The notes under the pieces are model-generated. The model ran no database searches and was not told where the DNA came from. It saw only the letters and a program-made list of their open reading frames with translations. 59,153 bases of DNA from Candidatus Thorarchaeota archaeon (lineage in GTDB: Archaea > Asgardarchaeota > Thorarchaeia > Thorarchaeales > Thorarchaeaceae): positions 1 through 59,153 of the forward strand of contig JAGSHN010000009.1 in NCBI GenBank assembly GCA_029855935.1. Reading direction: 5' to 3'. This document shows, in pieces, positions 16,132 through 58,650 of the stretch. The position numbers and the translations under genes were made by a program. Each line of letters starts with the position of its first letter. The first letter of the stretch is position 1.

Positions 16132-18492
16132 ATGTGGCCCTTTTTGATTGCGGGGTGGAAATACTATCGTCTTCTAGGCTGCGCTGTGTCTACGCTTCTC
16201 GTGATTCTCTTTCTGGCAGATGTTGTTGTTGGCGGCCCTGCCAGTGCTCCCGTTTCGGCAAATAGCCGGTCCCGCACGCCCGGTGGTCCCACCAGTGAGG
16301 ACTTCGTCCGGTCTGTGCCGTACATGGTGTCGGCCTACACTTCTCACGGTTCGATCAACATCACCTCCAATGCGGACTTTGTGTCGCAGGGGTGGCCGGG
16401 GAGTGGGACTGAGGCTGACCCCTATATGATGCGGGGGCTGAACATAACCACCAGCGGACACTGTATCTCTATCTCAGACACAACGGTCTATTTTGTGATA
16501 TGTGACTGCCTCCTCACAGGAGGCTCGCAAGGACACGGAGTGCGTCTGAACAATGTGACCTATGGAATGGTAGAGGGATGTCTGATCTCTGGGAAACAGT
16601 ACGGTGTGAATATGGTCTCCTCCTTGAACAACACGCTGGCGAACAACACCATCTCGCACAATAGTGATGGTGGCGTGTACATGGGATCCTCGAACTACAA
16701 CCGTCTGCTGAATAACATAGTTTCGTACAATAATGGTGATGATGGTGTGTATATGGACTCCTCGAACTACAACAGTCTGGTGAACAACACTGTTTCAAGC
16801 AATCATTGGAGAGGCGTGTCTATGTCCCACGACTCGAACTACAACAGTCTGGTCAACAACACCATATTGGACAATGATGGTCCTTGTGTGTTGGTCAAGT
16901 ACTCCTCAAGCTACAACAGTCTGGTCAACAACACCATCTCACACGGTGGTAATGATGGAGTGTCTATGTCCTACGACTCGACCTACAACACTCTGGTTGA
17001 CAATACAATCTCAAACAATTATCGGATTGGTGTGGACATATACTGCTCGGGGAACATTCTCGTGAACAACGTGATTACGTATAACGGTGATGATGGTGTG
17101 CAAACGTCCTCGAACAACATTCTGGTGAGCAACACTATCTCGTACAACGGTGATTGTGGTGTGAGCACGTACTCCTCCTCACTGAACAACACTCTGGTGA
17201 ACAACACAATCTCAAGCAATCATAATGATGGTGTATACACATACTCCTCCTCGAACAACACTCTGGTGAACAACACGATCTTGTACAATGGTGATGATGG
17301 TGTGGTGGTGCACTATTGCTCAGACTCCAACAGTCTGGTGAATAACATAGTCTCGTACAACGGTGACAATGGTGTGCAAATCTCGTCCGCCTCGAACTAC
17401 AACAGTCTGGTGAGCAACACCATATCAGACAATGATGGTATTGGCGTGTACATGTACTCCTCCTCGGACTCTAACAGTCTGATGAACAACATGATCTTAA
17501 ACAACTCTGGGCATGGTACGTATGTCGACTCCTCCTCGAACAACTGGATCTATCTTAACATTCTTGCTTGGAATGGCAACAATTCGTGTGATAACGGGTC
17601 AGACAACCACTGGAATACGACAGGAATGGGGAATTACTGGTCAGACTACAATGGCACGGGTGTCTACAGTATCCCCGGTTCTGCGGGTTCAGTGGACTAT
17701 CATCCAAGGATATGGCCGGTGAATGACACGACTCCGCCAACAGTCGACCATCCGGTTGACCTCGAGTACGTGGAGGGGGCCATTGGGAATGCTGTCACGT
17801 GGAGTCTTTCTGATGCGAATCCTTTCAGCTACGTAGTGTATCGCAACGGCACACCAGTGGAGTATGGAGGCTGGACGAATGGCTCTATCGCAATCGATGT
17901 CGATGGGCTAGGTGCAGGCACCTATAACATCACACTGGTGGTCTACGATGCCTCGGACAACTGGGCCAGCGACACAGTGTTTGTGACAGTCGTTGACTCC
18001 ACCGCTCCAACCATCGACCATCCGTCGGACATCGAGTACGTCGAGGGAACCACCGGGCACTCGATCACGTGGGCTCCAAGTGATGCACACCCTGCGAGCT
18101 ACGAGGTCTATCGGAACGGTACTCTTGTCGAGTCAGGGAGCTGGACAGGTGGAACAGTCACTGTCAATGTTGATGGGTTGACTGTGGGAGTGTACAACTT
18201 CACGCTGGTGGTGTATGATGCCTCAGGCAACTGGGCGGGTGACACTGTGCTTGTCGCGGTGGTGCCACAGAGTACCACAACGACGACCACCACGACTACA
18301 ACTACCACCACAACGACAACAACGCCGACCACCACTACTGCAGGCACGACCACCGAGACCACCAGCGAGACCTCCACCACGACACCGGGAGGTCTCGCAG
18401 GAGCAACGGCGATGATGATCCTAGTAGCTGGCGGCGCGGCCGTGGGTGTTGTGGTTGTTCTCTTGGTCGTCAGTGCCAGACGACGCCGTTGA
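16132..18492 (+). CDS. right-handed beta-helix (NosD-type) anchored surface protein
   Basis: 786 residues. Signal peptide 1-38 (LLGCAVSTLLVILFLADVVV). An N-terminal cap with WPGSGTEADPYMMRGLNIT and a DCLLTGG motif is shared with three other proteins in this window. Residues 140-500 are about 15 PbH1 coils of 22-25 residues, each with an L-V-N-N-T-I/V core and a G-V-Y/S-M turn: a right-handed beta-helix with an asparagine ladder. It closes with the shared GNYWSDYNGTGVY block. Two Ig-like (HYR-type) domains follow (IEYVEGTTGHSITW), then a Thr-rich stalk, a transmembrane helix and RRRR. Expected at the outer cell surface as an extended, probably N-glycosylated, carbohydrate-binding or structural rod. 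Substrate unknown. Confidence 0.88.
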   Translation: MWPFLIAGWKYYRLLGCAVSTLLVILFLADVVVGGPASAPVSANSRSRTPGGPTSEDFVRSVPYMVSAYTSHGSINITSNADFVSQGWPGSGTEADPYMMRGLNITTSGHCISISDTTVYFVICDCLLTGGSQGHGVRLNNVTYGMVEGCLISGKQYGVNMVSSLNNTLANNTISHNSDGGVYMGSSNYNRLLNNIVSYNNGDDGVYMDSSNYNSLVNNTVSSNHWRGVSMSHDSNYNSLVNNTILDNDGPCVLVKYSSSYNSLVNNTISHGGNDGVSMSYDSTYNTLVDNTISNNYRIGVDIYCSGNILVNNVITYNGDDGVQTSSNNILVSNTISYNGDCGVSTYSSSLNNTLVNNTISSNHNDGVYTYSSSNNTLVNNTILYNGDDGVVVHYCSDSNSLVNNIVSYNGDNGVQISSASNYNSLVSNTISDNDGIGVYMYSSSDSNSLMNNMILNNSGHGTYVDSSSNNWIYLNILAWNGNNSCDNGSDNHWNTTGMGNYWSDYNGTGVYSIPGSAGSVDYHPRIWPVNDTTPPTVDHPVDLEYVEGAIGNAVTWSLSDANPFSYVVYRNGTPVEYGGWTNGSIAIDVDGLGAGTYNITLVVYDASDNWASDTVFVTVVDSTAPTIDHPSDIEYVEGTTGHSITWAPSDAHPASYEVYRNGTLVESGSWTGGTVTVNVDGLTVGVYNFTLVVYDASGNWAGDTVLVAVVPQSTTTTTTTTTTTTTTTTTPTTTTAGTTTETTSETSTTTPGGLAGATAMMILVAGGAAVGVVVVLLVVSARRRR
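16600..17560 (+). repeat. PbH1 coil repeats
   Basis: About 14 imperfect DNA repeats of 66-75 nt, each built around codons for N-S-L-V-N-N-T-I and recognisable at nucleotide level by the recurring words AACAGTCTGGTGAACAACAC and GGTGATGATGGTGTG. High nucleotide similarity between neighbours suggests expansion by unequal exchange within the gene. Confidence 0.8.
18271..18375 (+). repeat. Thr-codon (ACN) low-complexity tract
   Basis: An almost unbroken run of ACN codons encoding a poly-Thr stalk just before the transmembrane helix. A mucin-like, probably O-glycosylated spacer is the usual interpretation. The tract is prone to length change. Confidence 0.85.
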
Positions 18493-27436: not shown

Positions 27437-30400
27437 GTGTCTGTTGACTTGAGGAGAAGTGCAGCCGTGCTTCTCATTCTGATTATCGTAGCCTCGACTG
27501 TTCCGGTTCTGCTGACCCCGGGTCTGATTCGGGCGGATGACCGCTCCGAACCTGCTGACCTCAACCCAATGAGAATCGGCGCGAGGCTTGCGCAGTACAC
27601 ACCACATGTGCCTGTGTGGATAGACGGGACTGATGATTTCCAGTCCCAAGGCTGGCCCGGCTCGGGCACATCTGATGACCCGTATGTCATCTCTGGGCTA
27701 AACATCACATACGATATCGACGAGCCATTGATTCGCATATGGAACACAGATGCCTACTTCATAGTGACAGACTGTGTTGTCAATCAGATCAGCAGTGGTG
27801 TTATGGCCGTCTACCTTGAGAACGTGACTCACGGTACACTCGACCACCTGACGGTCAACTCGCCCGATGTGGGAATATACCTGGTACGCGCGAACTACAC
27901 CAGTGTGCAATACACCGAGGTCACCGCTCAGAACGACTATGCTTTGCATGTCTGGTCATCACCACACACGGTTTTCAGATTCCTGAATCTGACGGCGCAG
28001 AGCTATCGCGCGGTCTTGCTATACGACTCTGACTGGTGCAGATTTGAGGACGTTATCTCGACCTCGCACTCGTCGTGGAACGGGTACTATCTTGCGTACT
28101 CTTCTCACGTCGCCTTCGAACGTGTCTCTCACACGTCATCATCCGCTTTTGTCTACGCCCTCAACTCAGCGATGGTTCAGATTCAGCACTGTGAGATATC
28201 AGGCTCCAGCTATGGGCTGTATCTCGAATCATCCCCGAACGCCACGGTTCAGGACTCGACTTTTCGTGTCAGTTCACACGGAATATTCGCCTCTGGCAGC
28301 TCTGAGAACGTCACCGTGCGGTCATCGGAGTTCTATGACGGCGATACTATGCTGTCGGCATCGGGCTCCACGGACAACGTACTGATTGACAATGTTCTCG
28401 TGGACTCGTTCCTTGCGGGAGTTTCCATACCAGTGTCGTACCATGCAATCGTCACCAACTCCGAATTCCGTGAATTGACCAAGGGACCAGTTCTGTCCGT
28501 ATCTCAGGGCGGGGACATCACGTTTGCTCAGAATGTGGTCGTCAATGGTAATGTTGGCACTGCTGTCGACTTGGCCGACTGCTCTGGTGTCACGGTCAGC
28601 GGCAACACCTTCGCAAACTTTGATGGGACCGCATTGTCTGCAACGAACGTCAACTACACAACCGTCGAGGGCAACTCCATTTCGAACGTGAAGACCGCCA
28701 CCGATGCCGCACAGTGCAACAACTGGACGATTGTATCGAACACCGTAGAGACTGTGACCAACTCGATTCAGTTCTATCAGGGCTCCAATGTGACGATAGC
28801 CTCCAACAATGTGACCGATGTGATCAACGAGGGAATCTACGTTGATGATGTCGCCGGGGACGTGATTGTGAGAGATAACAGCGCCCGCGAATGTAGTGGT
28901 ACGGGGGTCAATGTTGGGAGCGTCAATGGTAGAGTCTTGGCTGAGTACAACGGAGTCTGGGACTCAGCCGGTGGACTGTACTTCTATGCGATAGACAACC
29001 TCACCGTACGGTACAACTTTGTCAGCCAACCCATGTATGACGGAATCTCGATTGATCAGAGCCCCAACTCATTTGTCTTCAACAACACGGTATCTATGGC
29101 TGGGAGAGCTGGCATCTGGGTGTCGCACTCTGCTGGAACAAACTTCACTAGCAACTGGCTCTACCGATGCGGCTTCTACTTTGTGCACGATCAGGCTCTT
29201 GACGAGTATCGAGTGAGTATGACTGGCAACATTGTCAATGGCCTCCCCGTGTTCTACAAAGTCGACGAGATGGGCTATGCACTCCACGCCTGGAACTACG
29301 GCCAAGCGATTCTCATCAACTGCACGTATGTGGACGTCAACGGTGGAAGATGGCTCCGTCCGTCGGTCGGAGTGGCCGCATACTACTCAGACTGGATAAC
29401 GGTCCATAACTTCTCCATCGGCGAGGCATACTGGGGAATCATCACCGTGCGGAGTGCAAACATCACCATAGAGGATGGCTCTATCACAGCACTGTCCAAC
29501 GGCTACGGCCTGCTCATTCGTCACACTGATGACGTGACCCTGTCTGACCTTGAGATATCTGACATCGGGAACAACGGCTACGCGATCTACGCCGAGGTGG
29601 GAGATCGCTACACCATGGAGCAGCTGACTATCCTACACGCGGAGCGAATGTATTTCCGCCAGATAGACTATGCGACCCTCTCTGATTCGCAGATCTATCA
29701 GATGTCCTCCAACGCCCTCTTTGCATTCCAGTCCAACCACTGGCTGGTCAACGGGTGCTATTTCTCGGAGGCCCAGTATGGGATCTATCTCAGCTCCAGT
29801 TCCAGCTGGAACATCACCGGCTCAAACTTCTACTACATGAATCTCGACGGAGTCTCTACCTCCGGGAGCGTTAGCAACATCAGAATCACGGAGTGCTACT
29901 TCGAGGGATCAAGGATTGGTGTGAACGGAAACTCGGGTAGTGGCTGGGTGATAGTGAACAACACGTTCAGTTGGCACACTCAATACGGCGTCAGACTGGC
30001 TCTTGTCACTTCGCCCACTGTCTACCGCAACGTGTTTGTAGGAAACCACATGTTCAACGCATACGACACAGGCTCTAACTTCTGGGACGACGGCGTGAGC
30101 GTTGGCAACTGGTGGGATGACTATGCCGGTCCGGGCTACTACTACATCCCGGGAGGCTTCTCGGTCGACCGATATCCGTCTACCTACTTGCCGACCACAC
30201 CGATTCTCAGTAGTCCCCCAGACGTGAGCTACGCTGAGGGCACCGAGGAGTACGTCGTGACATGGTACGCATACGACGATCTTCTGTCAGGCTGGAATGC
30301 GACTCTTGACGGAGCGCCCTATGCGTCGGGCGTTTGGAACTTCGCGGACATAGAGGTCGATGTTGGAGGGCTTGCCTATGGCGTCCACCAGTTGGTACTC

Positions 30401-31171
30401 ACGGTCTATGATGTCGATCACAACACTGTGACCGACGTGCTGCTCATCAACGTCTACGACAATACGGCACCCGTGCTCGACGGTCCTGACTATGTGACCA
30501 GATTCGTAGGAGCCCCTGGGCAGGAGATCACCTGGGAGGCTACTGACCTCCACCCGGCAAACTATACCATCTACGAGGGTGACTCCACAATTGCAGAGGG
30601 TCTCTGGACTGGTGATACAGTCACGTATTCTGCGTCAGTGCTGTCGGAGGGTGACCATACACTCAGAATCGTCGTACGCGACATCGACCTCAACGTGGCA
30701 ACAATGACGACGAACGTGAGGATGCTTGTCGACAACACTGCCCCAACGGTCGACAGTCCTCCTGATGTGACCATCTACCAGGGCACGGCTGGCGCAGCGG
30801 TGGTGTGGACGGCGTCTGACGACCACCCGTCGAGATACGTGATTCAGCTGAATGGCACGGAGTACGACTCCGGGCCGTGGTCCGGTGGTCTGATCGTGTT
30901 GCCACTCGAGAACCTCTCGGTCGGACACTACGAGTTCACGATCTCTGTCTACGACGGTGCCGAGAACAGTGCTTCCGACACCGTTGTTGTGACTGTGACC
31001 TCACCACCGTGGCCGGGCCTCGTCGGGCCAACCACTACCACTGGTCCAACAACAACCCCACCTGGGCTAGGTGTGGACCCGATGTTGCTGATGCTTGCTG
31101 GCGGCAGCATCATTGGCGTCATCGTGGTGATCGCCGCGGTCAGGTACATCCGTAAAAGGAGGGCAGCGTAG
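27437..31171 (+). CDS. giant beta-helix surface protein with Ig-like domains
   Basis: 1244 residues, the largest protein here. Signal peptide 1-33, family cap (SQGWPGSGTSDDPYVISGLN; AYFIVTDCVVN), then a long, irregular right-handed beta-helix to about residue 880 with varied coils (VTVSGNTFANFDGT; NVTIASNNVTDVINEGIYV). One NosD-type insert is present (YGQAILINCTYVDVNGG). Three Ig-like domains follow, each beginning near a PP/GP-D-V pattern (YAEGTEEYVVTWYAYDD; FVGAPGQEITWEATDLHP; YQGTAGAAVVWTASDDHP). A short Thr/Pro linker, transmembrane helix and RKRRAA finish it. GTG 27437 is fixed by GGAGG at 27424. It is followed 43 nt later by another surface gene, so the two form a unit. Confidence 0.87.
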   Translation: MSVDLRRSAAVLLILIIVASTVPVLLTPGLIRADDRSEPADLNPMRIGARLAQYTPHVPVWIDGTDDFQSQGWPGSGTSDDPYVISGLNITYDIDEPLIRIWNTDAYFIVTDCVVNQISSGVMAVYLENVTHGTLDHLTVNSPDVGIYLVRANYTSVQYTEVTAQNDYALHVWSSPHTVFRFLNLTAQSYRAVLLYDSDWCRFEDVISTSHSSWNGYYLAYSSHVAFERVSHTSSSAFVYALNSAMVQIQHCEISGSSYGLYLESSPNATVQDSTFRVSSHGIFASGSSENVTVRSSEFYDGDTMLSASGSTDNVLIDNVLVDSFLAGVSIPVSYHAIVTNSEFRELTKGPVLSVSQGGDITFAQNVVVNGNVGTAVDLADCSGVTVSGNTFANFDGTALSATNVNYTTVEGNSISNVKTATDAAQCNNWTIVSNTVETVTNSIQFYQGSNVTIASNNVTDVINEGIYVDDVAGDVIVRDNSARECSGTGVNVGSVNGRVLAEYNGVWDSAGGLYFYAIDNLTVRYNFVSQPMYDGISIDQSPNSFVFNNTVSMAGRAGIWVSHSAGTNFTSNWLYRCGFYFVHDQALDEYRVSMTGNIVNGLPVFYKVDEMGYALHAWNYGQAILINCTYVDVNGGRWLRPSVGVAAYYSDWITVHNFSIGEAYWGIITVRSANITIEDGSITALSNGYGLLIRHTDDVTLSDLEISDIGNNGYAIYAEVGDRYTMEQLTILHAERMYFRQIDYATLSDSQIYQMSSNALFAFQSNHWLVNGCYFSEAQYGIYLSSSSSWNITGSNFYYMNLDGVSTSGSVSNIRITECYFEGSRIGVNGNSGSGWVIVNNTFSWHTQYGVRLALVTSPTVYRNVFVGNHMFNAYDTGSNFWDDGVSVGNWWDDYAGPGYYYIPGGFSVDRYPSTYLPTTPILSSPPDVSYAEGTEEYVVTWYAYDDLLSGWNATLDGAPYASGVWNFADIEVDVGGLAYGVHQLVLTVYDVDHNTVTDVLLINVYDNTAPVLDGPDYVTRFVGAPGQEITWEATDLHPANYTIYEGDSTIAEGLWTGDTVTYSASVLSEGDHTLRIVVRDIDLNVATMTTNVRMLVDNTAPTVDSPPDVTIYQGTAGAAVVWTASDDHPSRYVIQLNGTEYDSGPWSGGLIVLPLENLSVGHYEFTISVYDGAENSASDTVVVTVTSPPWPGLVGPTTTTGPTTTPPGLGVDPMLLMLAGGSIIGVIVVIAAVRYIRKRRAA

Positions 31172-36595: not shown

Positions 36596-39445
36596 TCAGC
36601 CGCGCCGCTTCCCGGTGACTACGAGCACTATGAGGACTCCTGTGGCAACGGCCCCCACTATGACCAGTATCGCGGCGGGACCTCCAAGCCACTCTGCCGC
36701 AGCGGTGGAGGTCGTGGACTCGCTGGTAGTGCTGGTGGACGTGTTCGTGCCTGTCGTAGTGCCCGTCACGGCAAGCACGGTCACAAACACCGTGTCACTA
36801 GTCCAGTTTCCTGACTCATCGTAGACCACTATGGTGTAGTTGTAGGTGCCCGCGCTGAGTCCGTCCACACCGACCGTCACCGGATCTCCCGTCCAAGTGC
36901 CGGCGAAGACGAGACTGCCGTTCCGATAGATCTCGTACCTCGCGGCGTGCGCATCGCTTGGGTTCCAAGTGATCGAGTGACCTGTGCTTCCCTCTACGTA
37001 CTCGATGTCAGCCGGACGGTCAATCGTCGGCGGGTCGCTGTCTGGAGCCTCTATCACAGTCACGAACACTGTGTCCTTGGCCCAGTTTCCTGACTTATCG
37101 TAGACGACTATCGTATAGTTGTATGTACCTATGCTCAGTCCGTCCGTGTCAATGGTGATGGAACCCCCTGGCCAGCCGTGTGACTCTATGAGAGTGCCAT
37201 TCTGGTACACCTCGTAGCTGGCGGGATAGTCGTCATACGGGCTCCACGTGATTGAATGCCCCGCAGCACCCTCAACGTATTCGATGTCTGATGGGTGATT
37301 GATGGTCGGAGGTGTGGTGTCGATCCATGTCCTTGGATGATAGTCCACCGAGCCCGTAGACGGTCCGACGACGTAGACACCCGTGCCATTGTAGTCTGAC
37401 CAGTAGTTGCCTATCCCTGTCGTGTTCCAGTAGTTGTCTGACCCCGCGTCGTATGCGTTGTTACCATTCCAAGCAAGAATGTTGAGGTAGATTCGGTTGT
37501 TTGAGGAGGAGTACAGATACACGCCATACTCAGAGTTGTCTGAGATGGTATTGCTCGTCAGAATGTTGTTCGACGAATTGTACAGCCACACACCGTCACC
37601 ATTGCGAGAGATGTTGCTGCTGACAACAATGTTGTTCGACGAAGAACGCAAAAACACGCCATACCGTGAGTTGTCTGAGATGGTGTTGTTCACCACAGCG
37701 TTGTTGGAGGAGAAGCCAAGTTCTATTCCCAGTGAGCTGTTGATGAACACGCCGTCAAGTACTGTGACCCCCGTGCAGTTTACCAGAATGACCTGACCAT
37801 ACTGGCCGCCATCAATCACTCCTCTTGCCAACCCGGAGAAGTAGCCCAGCGTCTTTCCGTTCACGGTGTTGTCGGAGATTGCAGTCTGCAACCAGTCCGA
37901 TAGCGTTTCCCCACGTATCTCGAGTCCGTTGTTGACAAACTCGTTGTTCACCAAACTGTTGTTGGGGGAGGAGTCCAAGCACACACCGTCATAATAGTTG
38001 TCTGAGATTGTGTTGTTGGCCACACTGTTGTTGGAGGAGGAAGAGAACAAGAGCACACCGAACCATGAGTTGTCTGAGATGGCGCTGTTCATCACAGTGT
38101 TGCGAGAGGAGGAGAATAGAAACACACCAGCATCACAGTCTGAAATGCTGCTGTTCACTACACTGTTGTTCGAGGAGTCCGACAGATACACACCATATGG
38201 GTTGTGTGAAATCGTGTTGTTCGTGAGAGTATTGTCGGAGGAGAAGCCCAGCTCTATACCCACCGTGGTATTGAAGAACACGCCATCCCGTACCGTCACA
38301 CCTGTACAGTTCGCCAGGATCACCTGACCGTACTGACTGCCATCAATCACCCCTCCTGTCAGCCCAGAGAAGTAGCCCAATGGTTTTCCGTTCACAGTGT
38401 TATCAGAGGTGACCGTCTGCAACCAGTGTGTGACAGTGGTCCCATCTACATATAGTCCGGTGTTCACAAACTCGTTGTTCACTATGCTGTTGTTCTGTGA
38501 GTACCAGATGAACACCCCATACGTGCTGTCCAGAATCACGTTATCGACCAGACTATTGTTGGAGGACGACTGCAGTTCCACACCACCTGAGATCACGTTG
38601 TTCACCAAGATGTTGTTCGAGGAGGAATAGGACAGTCCCACACCACCACCGTTGTGTGAGATTGTATTGTTCGACAGGCGGTTGTTGTTCGAGGAGTGCA
38701 GGTGAACACCATCATCGCCATTGCGTGAGACTGTGTTGTTCACCAGACTGTTACCGTTCGAGGAGTCGAGATACACAGCACGATATGAGCTGTATGAGAT
38801 GATGTTGTTCATCACGGTGTTGTTCGAGGACGAGTATAAGTGCACAGCACGACTGTTGTGTGAAATGGTGTTGTTCAACACACTGTTGTTCACGGACGAG
38901 TCGAGATGTACAGCGTGGTACGAGTTGTCTGAGATGGTGTTGTTGAGCACACTGTTGTACGAGGAGGAATACAACCGCACACCATTCCAGTTTCCCGAGA
39001 TCACACATTTCTCTATCATTCCATTGGTCACATTGTCCAGAGTCACGCCATCCCCTGAGGAGCCTCCTGTGAGCAGACAGTTGCGTATCACGAAATGGGC
39101 CGTTGTGTTTGATACGGAGATGCAGCCTCCGCTGGTGGTGATATTCAGTCCCTCTATCACGTACGGGTCCGCCTCGGTACCACTTCCCGGCCAGCCCTGA
39201 GATGCAAAGTCCGCATCGGAGGTGATAGTGATTGGACCGTGAGGACTGTAGGCAGAAACCATATGCTGTGGCAAGAGTATCTGCGTTTCTCCCCCATAGT
39301 CTCGACCAGTGCAGGTCCCGTCAAGGAGAGGAGTAGACTCAGTTGCCAGATTACCCAGTGTGCCGATCAGAAACAATGCTACCAGGCCAGCGCATAGCAA
39401 GAGGCAAGACCTGGAATGAAGCCTGTGTTTCGTACCCAAAGACAC
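36596..39445 (-). CDS. right-handed beta-helix (NosD-type) anchored surface protein with internal duplication
   Basis: 949 residues. Signal peptide 1-34 (LLLCAGLVALFLIGTLGNL), family cap (SQGWPGSGTEADPYVIEGLN; HFVIRNCLLTGG), then PbH1 coils (NSVLNNTISHNSRAVHL type) from about 150 to 660. Two near-identical blocks (residues 321-412 and 499-590) carry the NosD signature NTVNGKPLGYFSGL...GVIDG followed by YGQVILANCTGVTV. After the shared GNYWSDYNGTGVY block come two Ig-like domains (IEYVEGAAGHSITWSP; IEYVEGSTGHSITWNP), a Thr/Ser stalk, a transmembrane helix and KRRG. GTG start at 39445, with a TATTTCTTC/AAATAA element about 35 nt upstream. Confidence 0.87.
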   Translation of the reverse strand: MSLGTKHRLHSRSCLLLCAGLVALFLIGTLGNLATESTPLLDGTCTGRDYGGETQILLPQHMVSAYSPHGPITITSDADFASQGWPGSGTEADPYVIEGLNITTSGGCISVSNTTAHFVIRNCLLTGGSSGDGVTLDNVTNGMIEKCVISGNWNGVRLYSSSYNSVLNNTISDNSYHAVHLDSSVNNSVLNNTISHNSRAVHLYSSSNNTVMNNIISYSSYRAVYLDSSNGNSLVNNTVSRNGDDGVHLHSSNNNRLSNNTISHNGGGVGLSYSSSNNILVNNVISGGVELQSSSNNSLVDNVILDSTYGVFIWYSQNNSIVNNEFVNTGLYVDGTTVTHWLQTVTSDNTVNGKPLGYFSGLTGGVIDGSQYGQVILANCTGVTVRDGVFFNTTVGIELGFSSDNTLTNNTISHNPYGVYLSDSSNNSVVNSSISDCDAGVFLFSSSRNTVMNSAISDNSWFGVLLFSSSSNNSVANNTISDNYYDGVCLDSSPNNSLVNNEFVNNGLEIRGETLSDWLQTAISDNTVNGKTLGYFSGLARGVIDGGQYGQVILVNCTGVTVLDGVFINSSLGIELGFSSNNAVVNNTISDNSRYGVFLRSSSNNIVVSSNISRNGDGVWLYNSSNNILTSNTISDNSEYGVYLYSSSNNRIYLNILAWNGNNAYDAGSDNYWNTTGIGNYWSDYNGTGVYVVGPSTGSVDYHPRTWIDTTPPTINHPSDIEYVEGAAGHSITWSPYDDYPASYEVYQNGTLIESHGWPGGSITIDTDGLSIGTYNYTIVVYDKSGNWAKDTVFVTVIEAPDSDPPTIDRPADIEYVEGSTGHSITWNPSDAHAARYEIYRNGSLVFAGTWTGDPVTVGVDGLSAGTYNYTIVVYDESGNWTSDTVFVTVLAVTGTTTGTNTSTSTTSESTTSTAAAEWLGGPAAILVIVGAVATGVLIVLVVTGKRRG
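37676..38485 (-). repeat. intragenic tandem duplication in the 949-aa beta-helix gene
   Basis: Two copies of a ~276-nt block (38210-38485 and 37676-37951), each encoding NEFVN, a WLQT...SDNTVNGK core and GVIDG-QYGQVIL-NCTGVTV. They flank about 86 residues of ordinary PbH1 coils, so a ~530-nt unit was duplicated. Confidence 0.75.
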
Positions 39446-52468: not shown

Positions 52469-54115
52469 TTGAGAAGAAGCTTGTTCAGAGCAAGTTCCGA
52501 GGCAATACCGGCGTCACGAGACGTCGTCCCAGAGGTGCCCTTCGTCCTCCGCCTGGATCTATCGCGGGTGGACTCTGCTGCGTCGACCATTGTTGGTACA
52601 CCGATATCTTGCTACAAGTGCGGTGCGTTTGTGGAAGATGTTGCCGAGATCAAGGAAGACCCGAAGGTGGGCAAGCATTTCGTGTGCAGGTTTTGCGGCA
52701 CACTCAACATCGTGAAGGACGAGATCATCATTGCAGGACCGGACACAGAGATTGTCATCTCGGAGCCGGAGAAACCTGAGGAGGAGACGACGGTCGAGGG
52801 CCAGGACCTGAAGATGGGCTCCCTGCTGGCTGTGATAGACGTGTCCGGGTCGATGCAGGGAGCGAACCTCGCGGCAGTGAAACGGAGTCTTCTTGGGACG
52901 CTCAACAGTCTTGCGAGCAACTCCCCTGCCACCAAGTTCGGCCTCATCACATTCAGCACAGAGGTCTCCATAGTCGATATGATCGGAGGCAAGGTGCATA
53001 CGGTCCCTCCTGGGGCCTACAATAGCATCGATGCACTGATCAAGGAGGCCAAGAGAATCTCGGACGGCGTCCGTCTGGTGAAAGTGGGCGAGAACATCGA
53101 GTCTTTGAGGAAACAGGTGAACTCACTCTACGCTCAGGCATCCACGGCACTGGGGCCTGCTGTTGTCACCGCGTACGCGATGGCCGAGATGAAGGGGATT
53201 GACCGGGTCATTGTCTTGACCGACGGTCTGGCCAATGAGGGCATCGGCTCGTTTGAGGCAGTGCAGGTGCCTCCGGCGTCGGAGTTCTACTCCAAGATGG
53301 GCGATATGTTTCGAGAGTCCGGGACCGTCGTCGACATCGTGGGCATCGAGTCAGGTTCAGGGATGGAGCTGCGAACGCTCGGATCGATGCCACTTGCGAC
53401 AGGAGGCCAGATGTTTCTCGTCACACCCAGCGAGCTTGACAGGTCGCTTGCCGAGCTCGGGGGTCGTCGCGTCCTCGGTCGTGACGCTGTCGTGCGCCTG
53501 ATATCTCATCCCTCGATCCGCGTCGAGGATGTTGCTGGAGTGTCTCGGGCCATCGAGTCAGAGCTGAGAGAGTCACGGGAGGCAAGGCTTGCTGGAATAA
53601 CAGAGGACACAGAGCTGTACCTCAGCGTCGCTCCTGAGTCGAAGATTGACGCCGACGAGGTGCCGGTCCAAATTCAGGTGGAGTACACTGCGCCTGACGG
53701 CTCACGACGAATGCGTGTGATGACCAAGAAGTTCAAGGTGGCAAGAAAGAAGGAAGATGTCCTCAAGTCGCTCGACCCAGAGATACCCGCCGCCTTTGCC
53801 GTCCAGAAGGCCGGTGAGGAGTCGTTCCTCGGTGCAACAGATGCAGCTCAGTCGCGTCTTCAGAATCTGGAAGTCTTCTTCGAGGAGCAGGCCAAGGTGA
53901 GGCCTGCAGCCGCTGCCAAGAGGTTCAAGAAGGCGGCACGCGTCATCGGTCAGGAGAGATTCACGCTGGAGGAAGAGGTCCAGGCAGCCGCAGCTCCCTC
54001 GGCGGCGCCTCAGGCGAGAGATGCGTTTTCTGTGGCACAGATGGCACGGATGAGAAAGAAGAGCGACGACCTGTTCAAGGACGACGCTGGCGAGTCGGAG
54101 GAGGAAGAGGAATAG
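52469..54115 (+). CDS. Sec23/24-like protein (zinc ribbon plus vWA trunk)
   Basis: 548 residues. Zinc ribbon at 46-78: CYKCGAFVEDVAEI with Cys48/51 and FVCRFCGTLN with Cys73/76. A vWA (Sec23/24 trunk-like) domain spans about 118-325 with a complete MIDAS: D124-V-S126-G-S128 in IDVSGSMQ, and TDG251-253. A beta-sandwich-like segment (340-425) and a helical region (430-510) follow, then an acidic tail. Order and domain types match eukaryotic Sec23/Sec24 up to the helical domain; the gelsolin domain is missing. Sec23/24-like proteins are reported from Asgard archaea. The function is inferred (membrane-coat or trafficking-like). TTG 52469 is used; TTG 52481 is better spaced from GAGAGGAG. Confidence 0.78.
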   Translation: MRRSLFRASSEAIPASRDVVPEVPFVLRLDLSRVDSAASTIVGTPISCYKCGAFVEDVAEIKEDPKVGKHFVCRFCGTLNIVKDEIIIAGPDTEIVISEPEKPEEETTVEGQDLKMGSLLAVIDVSGSMQGANLAAVKRSLLGTLNSLASNSPATKFGLITFSTEVSIVDMIGGKVHTVPPGAYNSIDALIKEAKRISDGVRLVKVGENIESLRKQVNSLYAQASTALGPAVVTAYAMAEMKGIDRVIVLTDGLANEGIGSFEAVQVPPASEFYSKMGDMFRESGTVVDIVGIESGSGMELRTLGSMPLATGGQMFLVTPSELDRSLAELGGRRVLGRDAVVRLISHPSIRVEDVAGVSRAIESELRESREARLAGITEDTELYLSVAPESKIDADEVPVQIQVEYTAPDGSRRMRVMTKKFKVARKKEDVLKSLDPEIPAAFAVQKAGEESFLGATDAAQSRLQNLEVFFEEQAKVRPAAAAKRFKKAARVIGQERFTLEEEVQAAAAPSAAPQARDAFSVAQMARMRKKSDDLFKDDAGESEEEEE

Positions 54116-54919: not shown

Positions 54920-55206
54920 GGTTCTCCCACACTGTGCAGAACGTGATGTCCCAGCCGTTTGTCGCCCAAGATAAGGGTTCCGTGGGTCAAGTGCACCTCT
55001 TCACACTCGCCTTGCTCTGGCGGGGGAAGCCGAAGACTGAACTCGTTCTCAAACTCTCATCGGGACAGGAGATTGTGGTCGGACGATACTAGGCAAAGGA
55101 CTGGTAGAAAGCTCCGCGGTGATGCCAATTGCACCAGTGGGAAAACGGGCAAACCGGTGAAAAACCCATCCCCAAGAGTTATCAATCCTCAAATCAACTT
55201 AAAGAC
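54920..55206. other. intergenic region upstream of the UPF0175 gene
   Basis: About 290 bases. CAACTTAAAG (55193-55202) may be a TATA box; if so the transcript would begin near 55225 and the first usable start would be ATG 55252 rather than GTG 55207. Confidence 0.35.
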
Positions 55207-55476
55207 GTGATAGCGGAGAGAGAGATATCGGAACTTGCCGAGCTTCTCGGAATGAGTAAGGATGAAGCACTGAGAAGAGCACTGGAAGAGGGAATAAGAG
55301 AGTCAAGACTAAAGAAGTCCATAGAACTCTACGCTGCAGACAGAGTGAGCGTCAAACAGGCTGCGAGAATTGCCGGGTTGAGCCTTGCTGAATGGTTTGA
55401 AGTGGCAAGAGAAAAGGGACTGCTTGTTCAGATTGAGCCCGATGAGATAGAAGATGAGGTCAAGGCCCTAGAATGA
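55207..55476 (+). CDS. UPF0175-family antitoxin
   Basis: 89 residues from GTG 55207. The UPF0175 ribbon-helix-helix type protein is clear: EREISELAELLGMSKDEALR, RRALEEGIRESRLKKSIELY, RVSVKQAARIAGLSLAEWFE. These proteins are antitoxins to DUF3368/PIN toxins and usually repress their own operon. The downstream toxin start overlaps its stop by 4 nt (ATGA), but that toxin is broken, so this antitoxin may now be orphaned. ATG 55252 is an alternative start. Confidence 0.8.
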   Translation: MIAEREISELAELLGMSKDEALRRALEEGIRESRLKKSIELYAADRVSVKQAARIAGLSLAEWFEVAREKGLLVQIEPDEIEDEVKALE

Positions 55477-57980: not shown

Positions 57981-58235
57981 TTGAGTCTGGCAATTGAGGG
58001 TCAAGTCGGAAAGAAGCATACGATATACATTCCAAAGGCGGTGGTCGAGAAGGTGGGCCTCACAGAAGGGATGAGAATCCTCATCACCGTCGAGGACAAC
58101 AGAATCATCATCGAGCCGCTCCCGGACCCTGTCACGTTGGCACTGCACGGGAAGAAGTTTGCTACTGTGGGTCTTGAGGAACTGGAGGCCATAAGTCGTG
58201 AGGAGCAGTCCAGAATCACGGAAGATTCTTCTTGA
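57981..58235 (+). CDS. vapB: AbrB/SpoVT-type VapB antitoxin
   Basis: 84 residues from TTG 57981, supported by AGGTGA 6 nt upstream. Swapped-hairpin AbrB domain: GQVGKKHTIYIPKAVVEKVG, LTEGMRILITVEDNRIIIEP. The C-terminal half (EELEAISREEQSRITED) is the toxin-binding part. It binds DNA as a dimer to repress its operon and neutralises the downstream PIN toxin, whose start overlaps it by 38 nt. Confidence 0.85.
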   Translation: MSLAIEGQVGKKHTIYIPKAVVEKVGLTEGMRILITVEDNRIIIEPLPDPVTLALHGKKFATVGLEELEAISREEQSRITEDSS

Positions 58236-58650
58236 CACTTCCTTCCTCCTGCCAACTCTTGGAATCCGTGTGCAGGAAGAAGTGAATGATGCACTTCAGA
58301 AACTACATCCCCGGACCGAGAAGATCTTCTACTCTGAAGCAAGTCTCCTTGAATGCATATGGCTGGCCAAGGGACTAATCAGAAAAGGCAAGTATGACGA
58401 AGCGATCTTTCGAAGAGGACTACTCAGTATCACAAAGACCGGCTACTACGATGTTCTTCATCCGAGTGCTGAAGACTACCTCTTCGCGCTGAGACTATGC
58501 GAACTTGGGCACACAGACATGATTGACAACCTGCTGTACGCAATCGCCTTGAACAATATGTGCTGGTTTCTCACCATAGATGAGACGTTTGAGACCTTCA
58601 TTGAGAAGCAGGACTTTCAGAATGTGATTCTGACACCGAAGACACTCTGA
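58198..58650 (+). CDS. vapC: PIN-domain VapC-type toxin
   Basis: 150 residues from GTG 58198. PIN-domain acidic residues are all present: KILLDTSFLLP (Asp13), SEASLLECIWLAKG, HTDMIDNLLYAIA, and WFLTIDETFE. It should be a metal-dependent RNase. The start overlaps vapB by 38 nt, consistent with coupled translation. Length is normal, and no damage is seen. Confidence 0.85.
   Translation: MRSSPESRKILLDTSFLLPTLGIRVQEEVNDALQKLHPRTEKIFYSEASLLECIWLAKGLIRKGKYDEAIFRRGLLSITKTGYYDVLHPSAEDYLFALRLCELGHTDMIDNLLYAIALNNMCWFLTIDETFETFIEKQDFQNVILTPKTL

Follow-up and report, generated by a model that had tools for sequence, protein, structure and literature searches.

In eukaryotes the COPII inner coat proteins Sec23 and Sec24 combine N-terminal strands, a zinc ribbon, a vWA trunk, a beta-sandwich and a helical domain in this order, and the gelsolin domain of Sec23 carries the arginine finger for Sar1. 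According to the passages of PMC7997004 and PMC9648965 that cite the original work, reports of Thorarchaeotal Sec23/24 homologues go back to 2017; COPII homologues in Asgard archaea are covered in PMC10307638, and Asgard and Thorarchaeotal Sec23/24-domain proteins also in PMC7613921. A comparable core is found in ArnAB, a phospho-switched regulator that its authors compare to Sec23/24 (PMC12852372). ArnB and ArnE of Sulfolobus (8s05, 5a8j) contain a vWA domain, a topologically split beta-sandwich and a helical bundle with an intact MIDAS, and ArnA supplies a zinc ribbon in trans. Tripartite bacterial vWA proteins, such as that of Catenulispora (4fx5), also consist of a vWA domain, a beta-sandwich and a helix bundle.

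We here describe a gene in a window of 59,153 nucleotides, the whole stretch of Thorarchaeotal DNA that was analysed, which encodes a genuine Thorarchaeal (Asgard) relative of Sec23/Sec24. Homology places the protein in the Sec23/Sec24 superfamily, as an Asgard member encoded by a single gene. The gene and its parts are as follows.

52469..54115, plus strand: Asgard Sec23/24-like gene, 548 aa; open reading frame, Sec23_trunk above the Pfam cut-off, sole copy in the genome
52469..52600, plus strand: N-terminal segment, residues 1-44; strands joining the beta-sandwich in the AlphaFold2 secondary structure
52601..52720, plus strand: zinc ribbon, residues 45-84, with C48, C51, C73 and C76; zf-Sec23_Sec24 match
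52820..53470, plus strand: vWA trunk, residues 118-334; Sec23_trunk 37.7 bits, VWA 38.7 bits
52838..52855, plus strand: MIDAS DVSGSM, residues 124-129; near-invariant in 41 homologues
53144-53146 (T226) and 53219-53227 (T251-D252-G253), plus strand: MIDAS partners
53471..53746, plus strand: beta-sandwich, residues 335-426, with the Sec23_BS signature; Sec23_BS 29.5 bits, E 1.2e-6
53747..54004, plus strand: helical domain, residues about 427-512; AlphaFold2 helices
54050..54076, plus strand: C-terminal motif MRKKSDDLF, residues 528-536; conserved across four Asgard groups
54077..54112, plus strand: acidic C-terminal tail KDDAGESEEEEE, read from the sequence

The start codon is TTG at 52469 or TTG at 52481, with the stop at 54113-54115; because these two in-frame TTG codons, 12 bases apart, fit the N-terminus of aligned homologues equally well, the start is uncertain by four residues. 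An Rfam search detected no structured RNA. The N-terminal strands are placed in the same order as in Sec23/24 and ArnB, and the sandwich carries a signature of the Sec23/Sec24 PxQxQxxYxxxxGxxxxR type, P399-x-Q-x-Q-xx-Y-xxxx-G-xxxx-R416. Conservation was judged from alignments of 18 (A1) and 41 (A2) homologues. The four cysteines do not vary in A1 and vary little or not at all in A2, and the same holds for most zinc, MIDAS and Sec23_BS signature residues; D124, S126, S128, T226 and D252 of the MIDAS are invariant or nearly so in the 41 homologues, and D-x-SGS was found in 59/59 sequences checked. The original prediction of a four-Cys zinc ribbon and a vWA trunk with D-x-S-x-S (D124-x-S126-x-S128) and TDG (T251-D252-G253) is borne out.

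Among the Pfam models, Sec23_trunk exceeds its cut-off of 27 bits in the window protein, Sec23_BS falls slightly under its cut-off of 33.5 and zf-Sec23_Sec24, at 13.9 bits, lies under its cut-off of 25. Sec23_BS passes the cut-off in two homologues (L207 and L101), and across 18 family members Sec23_trunk matches 18/18, Sec23_BS 18/18 and the zinc finger 17/18 at E<=1, with a best zinc-finger E of 0.0023. Because the three Sec23/24 models recur over these 18 homologues, the sub-cut-off matches are not chance. The helical domain PF04815 gave no Pfam match in the window protein, but the AlphaFold2 model has a helical bundle (helices at 428-433, 438-453, 457-477 and 480-508, pLDDT about 93-98). 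No Pfam match to a gelsolin domain was found and the protein ends after the bundle and tail, in line with the claimed lack of that domain. The predicted structure shows the claimed domain order, with a helical bundle at its end. Homologue frames are about 500-640 aa. Among the C-termini of homologues L056-L104, Thor, Hermod, Jord/Frey and Borr members keep the C-terminal motif, with some variation, as R-x-[ST]-x-K-x-[LMI]-F. The tail that follows is acidic in most Thor members, and Loki, Sigyn and family f24 homologues mostly have basic KKRKK-type tails instead.

The AlphaFold2 model, built from 41 sequences, reached a pLDDT of 90.1 and a pTM of 0.90, the latter suggesting well-defined domain packing. 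In a Foldseek search of the PDB, ranks 1-46 were all Sec23/Sec24 chains (E 8e-31 to 2e-20, TMq 0.62-0.75) with alignments of 513-700 columns, in agreement with the expectation that the top structural hits would be Sec23/24 over more than 350 residues. The next match was the bacterial vWA protein 4fx5 (E 5e-17, TMq 0.47), followed by ArnB 8s05 at ranks 48-49 (E 3e-16, TMq 0.48). Foldseek with the model of a Lokiarchaeal homologue, which shares 24% identity with the window protein, again placed Sec23/24 at ranks 1-46, ahead of ArnB 8s05 at ranks 47-48; the two underlying alignments share members and the models are not fully independent.

Sequence comparison leads to the same relatives. The window protein alone matched human Sec24A with phmmer over residues 5-466 (E 2.7e-6, 29.7 bits), which can be set against the mere 31.5 bits between the human Sec23A core and Sec24A; the Sec23A query was confirmed by a 1250-bit match over 537/537 residues. 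The family profile matched Sec24A at E 5e-14 and Sec23A at E 2e-4 (24 bits), with ArnB as near as Sec23A (31 bits), and hhalign of the family against human Sec23A gave 356 aligned columns (probability 96, E 1.6e-9), again more than 350 residues. Structure, the zinc ribbon in cis and the Sec24 score together separate the family from ArnB. Profile scores lean to Sec24 and the TM-score leans slightly to Sec23, as expected of, but not proof for, a form that predates the Sec23/Sec24 split. The protein would accordingly be a pre-gelsolin form of the kind expected before that split, its ancestral state being our inference. It differs from Sec23 and Sec24, as far as sequence and predicted fold tell, in the missing gelsolin domain and in being a single gene rather than one of a pair. 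In human Sec24A the MIDAS is lost (DVSHNA in the phmmer alignment), whereas the archaeal trunk retains it intact and thereby keeps a predicted metal site that the eukaryotic one lacks.

A single-sequence search of the named genomes gave no matches, and a search with the family alignment returned near-full-length homologues exclusively from Asgard archaea, as the gene's proposed value as a taxonomic clue implied. Most of them are Thorarchaeotal, followed by those of Hermod-, Jord/Frey-, Borr-, Sigyn- and Lokiarchaeota and Harpocratesius. Bacterial matches had E 7e-8 and weaker, mostly over the vWA part alone. Near-full-length homologues, counted as matches of 380 bits or more, are present in 78/228 genomes of the phylum, usually one per genome, and in 39/47 genomes of the window's own family. 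No further copy was found in the window's genome, and no Sec23/Sec24-type paralogue pair was seen, nearly all genomes having one full-length match. Other families of the phylum have weak vWA matches only, some in ArnB-sized frames. In genomes G129-G136 (family f22), among others, frames of ~430 aa match the vWA core only, which points to relatives of ArnB size in Asgard families that lack the full-length protein.

Since the homologues include Thorarchaeota SMTZ1-45 and AB_25 (L085, L083), the window protein very probably belongs to the same orthologous family as the published Asgard/Thorarchaeotal Sec23/24-domain proteins. It differs from the published Thorarchaeotal ones in lying outside the conserved Thor locus, and it is 42-48% identical to its Thor relatives. 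Three points appear to be new: the position of the gene between roadblock genes and an MglA/Arf-like GTPase in Thorarchaeaceae, inserted in an older SMC-roadblock-GTPase block; its departure from that block in the window's genome, leaving a clean empty site; and the conservation of the C-terminal R-x-[ST]-x-K-x-[LM]-F peptide over four Asgard groups. In the open-access papers searched, we came across no account of the roadblock-GTPase locus, of its insertion and loss, or of the motif.

In the window the gene lies beside a weak histidine phosphatase and a GT2 glycosyltransferase, together with a 751-aa protein that matches no Pfam model. Such uninformative neighbours are particular to this genome, since in its relatives roadblock and small-GTPase genes adjoin it. 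Elsewhere in the window are three large NosD/right-handed beta-helix proteins (16132-18489, 27437-31168 and, on the minus strand, 36602-39445), probably at the cell surface, and by the contig end a MazE-like/PIN toxin-antitoxin pair (57981-58647) and a UPF0175 gene (55129-55473).

In almost all Thor loci with enough sequence to judge, the gene sits inside a fixed block, with ScpB, ScpA, SMC and the roadblock gene RBLc7 divergently on one side and RBLc8, RBLc3, a small GTPase, RBLc17 and UppS on the other. The GTPase is nearest to MglA (2e-40) and then Arf, RBLc3 is nearest to MglB, and the closest matches of RBLc8 are Asgard roadblock and dynein light chain. Between genera within Thorarchaeaceae the block GTPase is 92-97% identical; the Sec23/24-like proteins of relatives are <50% identical to the window's. 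Jord-, Hermod- and, partly, Borrarchaeota have the block but not the Sec23/24-like gene, so the ancestor of Thorarchaeaceae probably acquired the gene by insertion into the divergent promoter region. The SMC-ScpA-ScpB/roadblock/MglA-like GTPase/roadblock/UppS arrangement is itself conserved over Thor-, Hermod-, Jord- and partly Borrarchaeota (also in L218, L220 and L221) and sets chromosome-segregation genes next to a polarity-type GTPase system. Family f24 (L203-L207) has a strong Ras/Rab-type small GTPase gene about 4 kb away (188 bits in L204), a neighbourhood that differs from the Thorarchaeotal one. The window's genome also encodes two TRAPP homologues and 26 Arf-family-like GTPases.

The window's genome carries a gene-less block on contig C14 (L159:7838-15131), in which a 261-base gap aligns to both gene flanks of sister genomes; the window copy has therefore moved or is a replacement. 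In the tree the window protein falls within the Thor clade (100/100), where it forms a long branch (0.91) beside another genus (98/96). This position speaks against a plain relocated orthologue and leaves relocation with fast divergence indistinguishable from substitution by a foreign Thor copy. In a close relative (G006, L160:7950-8640) the gene is deleted, with the upstream region and the last 31 codons, including the C-terminal motif, remaining; this is either a recent loss or an assembly variant. The gene-less block in three Asgard groups and the G006 deletion reduce the weight of Thor synteny as a sign that the genes work together, and since synteny extends over the entire region, adjacency says little about a joint function.

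The most likely role, to which we assign a probability of about 0.5, is that of a soluble cytosolic scaffold or adaptor, a pre-gelsolin member of the Sec23/Sec24 superfamily with metal and peptide binding and a part in GTPase/roadblock membrane signalling. The intact MIDAS would bind metal and probably also an acidic residue of a partner, the rigid Sec23/24-type core would be held by the zinc ribbon and beta-sandwich, and the C-terminal R-x-[ST]-x-K-x-[LM]-F peptide may be phospho-regulated or serve in docking. The roadblock proteins and MglA/Arf-like GTPase that stand alongside in nearly all Thorarchaeaceae are the most plausible controllers, and synteny makes an action in GTPase-directed membrane organisation probable; because the gelsolin domain is missing, as judged by sequence length and Pfam, no Sec23-style Sar1 arginine finger is possible. 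Against this role, the GTPase neighbourhood goes back to a single ancestral insertion into a block that other groups keep without the gene, block and gene are apart in the window's genome, the gene is lost in G006, and ArnB, a motility regulator, has the same vWA-sandwich-helix core with intact MIDAS (PMC12852372). That the Thor protein is specifically the effector of the neighbouring GTPase and roadblocks, in a GTPase-switched membrane module preserving a stage before the Sar1/Sec23/Sec24 coat, is a tentative and rather doubtful extension.

The likeness to ArnB also allows a real, if lesser, chance that the protein is a phospho-signalling module in which kinases modify the C-terminal helical region and motif, FHA-type readers bind, and the output is expression or motility rather than membranes. 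ArnB and ArnE are the next structural matches after Sec23/24 and a bacterial vWA protein and share the vWA domain, split sandwich, helical bundle and intact MIDAS; the ArnA zinc finger docks on the ArnB sandwich and FHA reads a helical-bundle phospho-Thr (PMC12852372, PMC6509490), and the C-terminal motif has a conserved Ser/Thr behind basic residues. However, Sec23/24 chains fit clearly better (TMq 0.62-0.75 against 0.47-0.48), the zinc ribbon is part of the same chain, as in Sec23/24, and we saw no FHA protein or kinase in the conserved neighbourhood. The shared core fold, together with the Arf/MglA-like GTPase, roadblocks and TRAPP homologues of the genome, makes a vesicle-budding coat role possible, but a working proto-COPII inner coat, with homodimers on membranes under a small GTPase bending them or gathering cargo, is unlikely given the missing gelsolin domain and hence Sec23-type GAP finger, one gene per genome without a Sec23/Sec24 pair, no domain of marked net positive charge in the window protein and the loss in G006.

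Two further readings concern the identity of the gene itself. The window copy might be decaying or misbinned and not the organism's functional gene, as its long branch beside another genus, its absence from the ancestral block of the same assembly and an assembly contamination of 2.8% could indicate; we consider this quite improbable, since the frame is open, every zinc and MIDAS residue is retained and it is the sole copy in the genome, and another gene of the contig is closest to the window's own genus (69% to G002), which argues against misbinning. That the product is an ordinary prokaryotic vWA protein, of the YfbK or Mg-chelatase type, and has its zinc ribbon by coincidence is highly improbable and largely refuted by the Foldseek results of both models. 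The generic VWA model does score as well as Sec23_trunk, but the Sec23_BS and zinc-finger models match family-wide, bacterial matches are mostly confined to the vWA part, and structure and profile searches rank Sec23/24 well above 4fx5, ITIH and factor B; ordinary vWA proteins as best hits, the outcome that would have spoken against the original prediction, did not appear.

The protein bears on an open question, the origin of eukaryotic vesicle coats. A compact, single-copy Asgard Sec23/24 relative with an intact MIDAS names genes for joint expression and testing, namely the GTPase, the MglB-like and dynein-light-chain-like roadblocks and the Sec23/24-like protein, and its usual genomic home by a small-GTPase/roadblock operon gives a testable functional lead. 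Because Sec23/24, the Asgard family and the ArnB regulators are closely tied, our results suggest that the coat core derived from a signalling scaffold.
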